Source of the DNA: Limisphaerales bacterium | GTDB taxonomy: Bacteria > Verrucomicrobiota > Verrucomicrobiia > Limisphaerales > AAA164-E04 | DNA: 64,000 bases | Assembly (NCBI GenBank): GCA_024761205.1 | Contig: JAMASS010000011.1 | Location: 1 to 64,000, forward strand | Direction of reading: 5' to 3' | In this document: positions 25,709 through 28,217 of the stretch, one piece after another | Numbering within the stretch: the stretch's first letter is position 1 | Layout of the letters: the number at the start of each line of letters is the position of its first letter | The notes under the pieces: generated by a model | Told to the model about the DNA's origin: nothing | Seen by the model: only the letters and a program-made list of their open reading frames with translations | The model's database searches: none | Made by a program: the position numbers and the translations under genes

Positions 25709-27280
25709 CTACGGCGTCCGTTTCTTTCGTCGGTCATTTCGCTTTTCAGCGTTTAGGAACCGATTCACCGCATTGAGGTAGGCCTTGGCACTCGCCTCGA
25801 TAATGTCGGTGCTCGCGCCTTTACCGGTCACCAACTCGCCGTCGCCGAAGTCTGCTTTCACTGTCACCTCGCCCAGAGCATCCTTGCCCTGAGAAACCCC
25901 CCGCATAGAGAAGTCCTTCAACCGTCCGCGAGTTTCGGTCAACCGGTCGATCGCCTTGAGCGCGGCATCAACCGGTCCATCTCCCACCCCAGCATCTTGC
26001 AGGACCTTTTTCTTTTTGGAGCCTGCGCGGGCCAATCGAACGGTGGCAGTGGGCACCGTGGAGGATCCGCTCGAAACACTGATATAGTCCAGCGACCATG
26101 TCTCGGGCAGCATCGTAATGTGGCCTTCCACCAGTGCTGCCAAATCATCGTCGTAGACAAATTTCTTTTTGTCTCCGATCTCTTTGAAGCGCGCAAAAAT
26201 CGCGCTCACATCATCATCGGTCATCTTGAAGCCCAAGTGCTTCAAGCGGGAGGCAACCGCCGCCCGGCCACTGTGTTTTGTCAGCGGCAACTCGGTCTTG
26301 CCCCAACCAACCTGGAGAGGATCCACAATCTCGTAGGTCTCCCGCTTCTTCAAGATACCGTCCTGATGAATACCACTGCTGTGGGCAAAGGCATTCTCAC
26401 CCACGATGGCTTTGCTCCGCTGGACACTCAACCCGGACATCCTGGCAACAAGACGCGAGGACCGAACGATCTCCTTGGTGTTCACACCACACTTGAAGCC
26501 GCGATAGACATCCTTACGGGTATTCAACGCCATGGTGATTTCCTCAAGTGCCGCATTGCCGGCGCGCTCGCCAATTCCGTTCATGGTGCATTCCACCTGG
26601 CGGGCACCCGCGCGAATCGCCGCCAAGGAGTTGGCAACGGCCAGGCCCAGGTCGTTGTGGCAGTGCACACTAATCACCGCCTTACCGGACTGAAACTCGG
26701 GCACGGAATCGTAGAGGTGCCGAATCAATGCCTCGAACTCCACCGGCACCGCCCAGCCAACAGTATCGGGAATATTCACCGTCGTTGCACCGGCATCGAC
26801 CGATGCCTGGCACACCTTCGCCAGGAACTCCGGCTCGGTCCTCGACGCGTCCTCCGGCGAAAACTCAACATCATCCACGTACGACTTCGCATGCTTTACC
26901 CCCCTGACAGCCAAACGAACAATCTCGCTCTCCGCCTTCCCCAACTTGAACTCTCGATGGATTTTCGAGGTGGCCAAGAACACATGGATCCGACCACGTT
27001 TGCCGGCCGGTTTGACGGCGGCACCAGCCGCATCGATGTCCTCGGAAACACAGCGGGCCAGACCGGCGATCGTCGGTCCCTTGAGCTCGCGGGCAATGGT
27101 CTCGACCGCGGTAAAGTCCCCCTCGCTAATGACTGGAAATCCCGCCTCAATCACATCCACCTTGAGACGTTCCAGCTGGCGGGCCACCTCTAGTTTTTCA
27201 CGAAGATTCATTGAGGCCCCGGGACACTGCTCTCCATCGCGCAATGTGGTATCAAAGACGATAATGCGTTTATTCTTCAT
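25709..27280 (-). CDS. leuA: 2-isopropylmalate synthase
   Basis: 523 residues from the ATG at 27280 (MKNKRIIVFDTTLRDGEQ); a TTG 12 bp upstream is also in frame but less likely. LeuA condenses acetyl-CoA with 2-oxoisovalerate, the first step of leucine synthesis. The HMGL-like TIM barrel shows DTTLRDGEQCPGASM, the metal site HCHNDLG and the GIGERAGNAALEE motif. The C-terminal LeuA dimer domain (about 370-510) binds leucine for feedback inhibition. The other leu genes are not in the window. Upstream lies a leucine-rich leader ORF and attenuator hairpin, so expression is probably set by charged tRNA-Leu. Confidence 0.95.
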   Translation of the reverse strand: MKNKRIIVFDTTLRDGEQCPGASMNLREKLEVARQLERLKVDVIEAGFPVISEGDFTAVETIARELKGPTIAGLARCVSEDIDAAGAAVKPAGKRGRIHVFLATSKIHREFKLGKAESEIVRLAVRGVKHAKSYVDDVEFSPEDASRTEPEFLAKVCQASVDAGATTVNIPDTVGWAVPVEFEALIRHLYDSVPEFQSGKAVISVHCHNDLGLAVANSLAAIRAGARQVECTMNGIGERAGNAALEEITMALNTRKDVYRGFKCGVNTKEIVRSSRLVARMSGLSVQRSKAIVGENAFAHSSGIHQDGILKKRETYEIVDPLQVGWGKTELPLTKHSGRAAVASRLKHLGFKMTDDDVSAIFARFKEIGDKKKFVYDDDLAALVEGHITMLPETWSLDYISVSSGSSTVPTATVRLARAGSKKKKVLQDAGVGDGPVDAALKAIDRLTETRGRLKDFSMRGVSQGKDALGEVTVKADFGDGELVTGKGASTDIIEASAKAYLNAVNRFLNAEKRNDRRKKRTP

Positions 27281-27329
27281 CGATTCCGCCAATCATAGTT
27301 TTCGGTTTCCATCCACACGGTTGGTTGAC

Positions 27330-27367
27330 AAAATAAAACCCCACCGCCATCTCCGTGGCAGTGGGGT
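27330..27367 (-). terminator. leuA attenuator hairpin
   Basis: A 12-bp stem on the minus strand: ACCCCACTGCCA (27356-27367) pairs with TGGCGGTGGGGT (27338-27349), with only one G-U pair, a 6-nt loop (27350-27355) and TTTTATTTT directly after (27330-27338). It sits between the leader ORF and leuA. The 5' arm can instead pair with GGCAGTCGGG in the leader ORF (27394-27403; 9 of 10 bases), which would form an antiterminator. Confidence 0.85.
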
Positions 27368-27387
27368 CCTAAAAAGATCTTCCAAGA

Positions 27388-27462
27388 CTAGCACCCGACT
27401 GCCGGACTGCCAAGAAGCAGCCCGCTGATAAGCAGCAGTAGAATGTCTAGCGATTTCCGCAT
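27388..27462 (-). CDS. leuL: Leucine-rich leader peptide of leuA
   Basis: 24 codons, ATG at 27462, TAG at 27388-27390. Eight of 24 residues are Leu, in runs LLLL (codons 8-11) and LLL (15-17), plus two Ile. The stop is 20 bp before the attenuator stem. An in-frame ATG at 27480 could add MLVSVP. The end (GSPAVGC) also looks like a lipobox that stops right after Cys, so a tiny lipoprotein is the alternative. The position before a terminator upstream of leuA makes ribosome-stalling attenuation the better reading. I use the symbol leuL by analogy with known leu leaders. Confidence 0.75.
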   Translation of the reverse strand: MRKSLDILLLLISGLLLGSPAVGC

Positions 27463-28217
27463 CGGCACAGACACTAGCATTTTCGAATGCGCCGGGTCAA
27501 TGGAAATGTTCCCCTTCGAAATCACCAAAACTTTGCGAATTCCTGCAACAACCGTTACAAAAGATCATCCCTAAAAATGCTTAAGAGACTATTGAACATG
27601 AACGCTCCTTCATCAGCCAACGAGGACGTCAACCATCACACTTTTCTCAAAACCTCCGCCCCCGGTAAAGCCAGTGATTTGGCAGCAGACATCTCCAAAC
27701 ACTCACCGAGTTCATCCTGCCCGCTAACATCAATACTCACGAAAACCTCATGCTCGTCTCAGATATTGGCGCGCGCATTACCTTGGAGAATAAGAGAAAT
27801 GAAATCATCGCCCATCTCTGCAAATATCCTGAATGGCGCGAACTCGTTTCTTCACCCTCACAACGCCTGCTTTCATCAGGAAGGGAATATCCGTCGCCGA
27901 ATGGGTGGCTACCGGAAGAGTGACCAAGCTGCGTCGACTCTCGTAAGTCATTCCCACTTCAATACCAACAGACGGTGAGTCCGTTTCCAAGAAGGTGAGG
28001 TGAGACTCCGACGAGCCGCTCTTGCCTTACGGGGCCTAAAGGATCTGCGAGGTTCATTTCGCCAACTGTTGCCTTTTGGAATGGGATTCCATCCGCCTTC
28101 GCTTCGCTACAGAGGGCAGCGGTTCGTGAGACCCTCATCACGCTCAATCGGACACCCAACCAGCTCATCCCGCAATGAATTCGTGACTGTCTTGAACCAC
28201 CATGGCACACTCACTGC
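27463..28217. other. Intergenic region with one unrecognised coherent frame
   Basis: On the plus strand 27702-27923 reads LTEFILPANINTHENLMLVS and on to PEWRELVSSPSQRLLSSG before a stop. It looks like real coding sequence (perhaps the 3' end of a broken gene whose 5' part lies near 27600 in another frame), but I recognise no family. The rest up to larB holds nothing I can name. Confidence 0.4.

Follow-up and report, generated by a model that had tools for sequence, protein, structure and literature searches.

Directly in front of leuA, the gene for 2-isopropylmalate synthase, the genome of a Limisphaerales bacterium carries a short open reading frame rich in leucine codons, followed by a structure with the features of an intrinsic terminator. 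What are these two elements doing there, and do they act together on leuA? The locus lies in a stretch of 64,000 nucleotides (contig JAMASS010000011.1), referred to here as the window. The original prediction for it, made from the DNA letters alone, was ribosome-mediated attenuation of leuA transcription. The leuA product matches two NCBIfam models, NF002086 (741.8 bits) and TIGR00973 (681.8 bits), both over cut-off. All elements of the proposed attenuator are located on the minus strand, at 27500-27334, with leuA downstream of them:

27495..27500, minus strand: -35 element TTGACC, of which TTGAC is conserved in relatives
27471..27476, minus strand: -10 element TAGTGT, separated from the -35 element by an 18-base spacer
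27462-27388, minus strand: leader peptide reading frame, MRKSLDILLLLISGLLLGSPAVGC, 24 codons plus TAG, 8 of the 24 coding for Leu
27416..27424, minus strand: 5' arm of hairpin P1, CGGGCTGCT, which includes Leu control codons
27403..27411, minus strand: 3' arm of hairpin P1, GGCAGTCCG
27394..27403, minus strand: antiterminator strand, GGCAGTCGGG, within the last leader codons
27371-27334, minus strand: terminator, a 16 bp stem with a 6-base loop, then TTTTATTTT
27356..27371, minus strand: 5' arm of the terminator, TAGGACCCCACTGCCA, which doubles as partner of the antiterminator strand
27334..27349, minus strand: 3' arm of the terminator, TGGCGGTGGGGTTTTA, then TTTTG
25709..27277, minus strand: leuA, the presumed regulated gene, with ATG at 27277 and an alternative TTG at 27292

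The ATG (MKNKRIIVF...) is the more likely start of leuA, since alignments with homologs begin at residue 3-5. On its other side the leader is flanked by larB, which is divergent from leuA, and the terminator therefore serves no upstream gene. The segment between the leader promoter and larB (27580-28215 of the window) contains only short open reading frames on both strands and may represent a decayed gene.

The 24-codon frame with its eight leucines was found as originally described, and so was the alternative pairing, in which GGCAGTCGGG (27403-27394) matches CCCCACTGCC of the terminator 5' arm at 9 of 10 positions. The terminator had been given as a 12 bp stem 20 bp past the frame; the distance of about 20 bases holds for a 12-bp core, but the full stem has 16 bp and begins 16 bases after the stop codon. 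A second, weaker copy of the antiterminator motif had also been reported. The motif, GGCAGTCCGG, is present, but at 27411-27402, one base off the position given for it and with two bases common with the first copy, and it is mainly the 3' arm of P1 rather than an alternative pairing partner. Folding of the RNA from leader to terminator gave -65.3 kcal/mol, compared with a mean of -49.7 for shuffled sequences (z = -4.1).

Conservation was assessed in 116 related genomes, about 60 of which possess a leuA of the window type. The order is taken here as Limisphaerales/Pedosphaerales, as inferred from named relatives (Verrucomicrobia MAGs including UBA2970, and Pedosphaera). A Leu-rich reading frame followed by a terminator stands just 5' of leuA in 57 of the 58 same-order loci with upstream sequence, the window included; the element is absent from one locus only (L039), and at another (L004) the contig ends within the upstream region. 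As had been proposed with the original prediction, the leuA upstream regions of relatives were aligned, and the Leu-rich mini-ORF proved to be conserved and its stems to covary. The alignment (A1) comprises 52 leaders with a median pairwise identity of 57%, five less canonical loci being left out. Its leaders have 18-25 codons, among them 4-9 for Leu. Counted back from the stop, the Leu codons cluster in two blocks, -16 to -14 and -10 to -8. At these six control-codon positions Leu occurs in 241 of 312 cases. Ninety-nine of the 241 codons are not CTG, the commonest one; the amino acid is therefore retained although its codons vary. The gap between stop codon and stem is 15-25 bases among relatives.

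A counterpart of the leader was found in front of another gene of branched-chain amino acid synthesis. In front of ilvB, again within the order, TTGAC, a leader with a run of Val codons and a terminator are present in 27 of 30 loci (L222-L251 and L217). One such leader reads MIKNVQQVLVVVVVGGVAGACRG, and many relatives have VVVV or VVVVV; the terminator has the form CCCACGGC...GTCGTGGG. In the window's own genome, ilvB (G000:C24:14118; L217, about 1229-1400) is preceded by the leader MNLNFEVSVGLVGLGQGVLVTRGSCRY, rich in Val and Leu without a long run, and by a terminator. Among 25 loci each of trpE and hisG from the same order, no comparable leader arrangement was seen upstream. With Leu codons at leuA and Val codons at ilvB, the codon run follows the pathway, and no other observation argues as strongly for ribosome stalling specific to the amino acid. 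Judged from these loci, the combination of leader and terminator is far beyond chance, because it recurs in 57 of 58 leuA loci and is absent at trpE and hisG.

The promoter of the leader was recognised only on aligning the relatives; a simple sigma-70 promoter scan of the window returned no site. TTGAC occurs within 25-50 bases 5' of the leader start codon in 57 of 57 loci, at distances of 35-50 bases and mostly 35-41, with 0.9 expected from shuffled sequences, and in the leuA leaders of the order a TA-rich hexamer follows it after 16-18 bases. The promoter resembles the sigma-70 type. In the window the transcription start is predicted at about 27464, which would leave about 2 bases of 5' UTR, and in most loci it is predicted about 0-5 bases from the leader start codon. 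As TTGAC stands so near the start codon, the leader reading frame of leuA is predicted to be leaderless. The same is predicted for the ilvB leaders, whose start codons lie 34-42 bases after TTGAC, the same spacing as at leuA. The alternative that survives best keeps attenuation by the ribosome and disputes just this point: transcription would start further upstream, and TTGAC would bind something else. The start is a prediction, the -10 matches are weak (TAGTGT in the window) and the simple scan saw no promoter, all of which would fit such a reading; the invariable TTGAC at its narrow range of distances, the TA-rich hexamer behind it and the similar spacing at ilvB speak against it, and we regard it as improbable.

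The RNA structure of the leader consists of hairpins that compete with each other. In hairpin P1 the last Leu block pairs with the codons that follow it; the window has a 9-bp stem of -14.9 kcal/mol here, and in A1 both sides are changed in 6 of 7 P1 pairs. In the antiterminator, the final codons of the leader pair with the 5' arm of the terminator, and 7 of 12 of these pairs are double-changed in A1. Because covariation shuffles retain shared ancestry, weight was put on these double-changed pairs and on controls slid along the alignment. P1 and antiterminator together have 13 of 19 pairs double-changed, a level reached in 0 of 500 shuffles, and the sliding controls were lower on every measure. 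The terminator is 97% paired in A1, with 8 of 12 pairs double-changed (again 0 of 500 shuffles as high). An outer pairing, P0, between the first Leu block and the antiterminator strand covaries weakly, 43 of 500 shuffles being as high. At -11.8 kcal/mol, P1 is also more stable than in synonymous-codon shuffles (-7.7 kcal/mol), and the upstream part of the reading frame sequesters the antiterminator strand with 11.7 pairs, compared with 10.2 in shuffles (largest replicate 10.7). Covariation and stem stability thus assign the second motif copy to the P1 3' arm, and its candidacy as a spare antiterminator was rejected. Terminator and antiterminator share the terminator 5' arm and are mutually exclusive.

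One position of the antiterminator helix is peculiar. At alignment column 69, the third base of codon -3, the antiterminator is unpaired in 47 of 52 sequences, and the partner column is paired in the terminator in 52 of 52. Codon -3 is Val in 30 leaders, and in none of them is it GTG, with which the antiterminator helix would be complete; in the window's leuA, GTG makes up 24 of 48 Val codons. We read this mismatch as tuning that keeps the terminator stronger, the counts being taken from related sequences with kinship uncorrected.

Conserved RNA structure with mutually exclusive hairpins is also what a ligand-binding riboswitch or a T-box would display, either of which could control the terminator without any translated leader. 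Rfam was searched at permissive thresholds, E = 10 with the window and E = 1 with seven relatives, and neither search yielded Leu_leader, a T-box, a riboswitch or any other relevant family. Nearly all of the structure lies inside a conserved reading frame whose codon run fits the pathway, and a riboswitch or T-box is very unlikely. Still less credible is a genuine small lipoprotein or membrane peptide as the product of the mini-ORF, with the terminator belonging to this gene. The window's peptide does have a hydrophobic core and a lipobox-like end, AVGC, with a terminator after it; across the 52 leaders, however, the last residue varies (F in 18, V in 16, C in 6, L in 6 and H in 2), Cys is last in just those six and none continues past it. 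The conserved C-terminal residues are accounted for by antiterminator pairing, and the control residues match the downstream gene, Leu at leuA and Val at ilvB. Finally, intrinsic terminators are common, but an ordinary terminator without regulatory role, beside a frame that arose by chance, can be dismissed, since the divergent larB leaves no transcript in need of ending, and conservation, covariation and the match of the codon run to the pathway rule out chance.

Attenuation thus remains as the reading of the locus: leuA is very probably under leucine-responsive, ribosome-mediated control of transcription. The Leu codons, the antiterminator with its alternative pairing, the terminator and the strand placement are all conserved, as the original prediction requires of them, and the reading frame does not behave as that of a lipoprotein. 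From the elements observed here, their conservation, covariation and geometry, we infer leader translation, the transcription start, the start codons, termination and the response to leucine in the following form. Transcription would begin at or a few bases from the leader start codon, and ribosomes would enter the RNA at its 5' end, with no Shine-Dalgarno site involved. When leucyl-tRNA is scarce, a ribosome would stall on the Leu codons and melt P1 and the outer pairing, leaving the antiterminator strand GGCAGTCGGG free just ahead of it; this strand would capture CCCCACTGCC of the terminator 5' arm, and RNA polymerase would proceed into leuA. When leucine is plentiful, the ribosome would reach the stop codon and cover the antiterminator strand, the terminator would form and transcription would end. 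Without translation the reading frame would fold on itself and tend to sequester the antiterminator strand, so that termination would be favoured as well.

Ribosome positions were modelled as footprints on the nascent RNA. With the ribosome on the second Leu block, the median number of antiterminator pairs in the model is 9.9; with the ribosome at the stop codon it is 0. Untranslated nascent RNA gives an intermediate median of 3.4 through self-folding. The window's own untranslated RNA still forms the antiterminator in the model (10.8 pairs), and the state without translation is therefore uncertain for this genome. Full-length RNA at equilibrium always prefers the terminator in the model, and readthrough must therefore have a kinetic basis, as is accepted for known attenuators.

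How far the element extends was examined with a covariance model (R1) at a threshold of E <= 0.001. Within the order, R1 has matches in 251 of 293 genomes, or in 138 of 154 when only those of good quality are counted; matches near E = 0.001 may include chance terminators. Elsewhere in the class, the 12 matches retrieved at E <= 3e-7 (L173-L184) all stand before leuA, and nearly all have clear Leu-run leaders; weaker class-level matches are mixed. In several genomes of the order the element also precedes a second type of leuA, about 30% identical to the LeuA of the window (L141, L145-L147, L150, L155, L171, L172), and one genome (G072) has both types with the element before each. This suggests either replacement of the gene under a kept element or transfer of the element. 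In several families, among them f64 and f68, which are probably Akkermansia and its kin, no such leader was found upstream of leuA.

Five matches of the model (L185-L189) are not at leuA, and no Rfam family was found at the match in L185, L187, L188 and L189. Two of these (L187:419-559 and L188:498-607, E about 5e-8 and 1e-7, with moderate scores) have in common a GCAGGTAATAGA stretch before an AAACCCYGCTT terminator, and the match in L187 is upstream of a tRNA cluster. Among more distant leuA genes, those of Desulfobacterota MAGs (L105, L109, L110, L111, L117, L119) have Leu leaders of their own, for example MRLLPLELLLLPGLLRGGVCLR, and a different terminator, GGGCCGCAGG; they likely constitute a separate family of leu attenuators. 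In more distant members of the phylum (L201, L203, L204, L205), Leu-run mini-ORFs (RALLLLLLEG, LLLLRCAAVG) occur at leuA, sometimes with a terminator, hinting that the attenuator may be older than the class.

The leu attenuators of Proteobacteria are represented by E. coli leuL and the Rfam family Leu_leader. They share with the element described here a run of Leu codons in a short leader reading frame, an antiterminator and an intrinsic terminator 5' of leuA; in the present element, in contrast, the final codons of the leader double as the antiterminator strand, and a leaderless start is predicted. The actinobacterial LEU element and LeuL1 likewise have a Leu-rich leader reading frame 5' of leuA (PMC1262725, PMC8079986), but the actinobacterial leuA leader lacks a typical intrinsic terminator, and a pseudoknot has been proposed instead, whose base stem pairs Leu codons with the leuA ribosome site (PMC1262725, PMC8079986), whereas the Limisphaerales element has a strong covarying terminator. 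LeuL1 of Streptomyces lividans is leaderless (PMC8079986). LeuL2 of Streptomyces leuS is a leaderless Leu leader as well, followed by a hairpin and a U-run, but it regulates a tRNA synthetase gene and has 12 codons with 3 Leu (PMC8079986). With leaderless leu leaders known from Streptomyces (PMC8079986), the leaderless start is therefore not new as a kind. The three-hairpin attenuator of Corynebacterium glutamicum ilvBNC, with control codons in its leader and an antiantiterminator, antiterminator and terminator (PMC11857589), follows a logic close to the role proposed here for P0/P1, antiterminator and terminator; it differs in gene, control codons and phylum, and it is mutation-tested (PMC11857589) where ours is predicted from sequence.

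Naville and Gautheret described leader-peptide systems as shown only in Proteobacteria and Actinobacteria, and added Firmicutes (PMC2965389). In agreement with the original prediction, which knew of no attenuation of leuA in Verrucomicrobiota, our search of openly available journal papers found no attenuator described in this phylum. The mechanism is a textbook one; what appears to be new is the family, its phylum and the pairing of a Leu with a Val version. We consider it reasonably probable that Verrucomicrobiota own an old family of leaderless branched-chain attenuators, with Leu at leuA, Val at ilvB and the antiterminator in the final codons, in which the leu element stayed in place or moved as a non-orthologous leuA was swapped in, and in which the mismatch at codon -3 is deliberate.

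An order-wide, covarying family in Verrucomicrobiota widens the known range of leader-peptide attenuation and predicts a mode of gene regulation in a phylum that is largely uncultured. The predicted leaderless start is of interest in view of Akkermansia, a member of this phylum that is reportedly poor in Shine-Dalgarno sites (PMC10783764). In such leaders, coupling of the first ribosome to RNA polymerase would set in with the first transcribed bases, and the paired Leu and Val versions make codon specificity directly testable.
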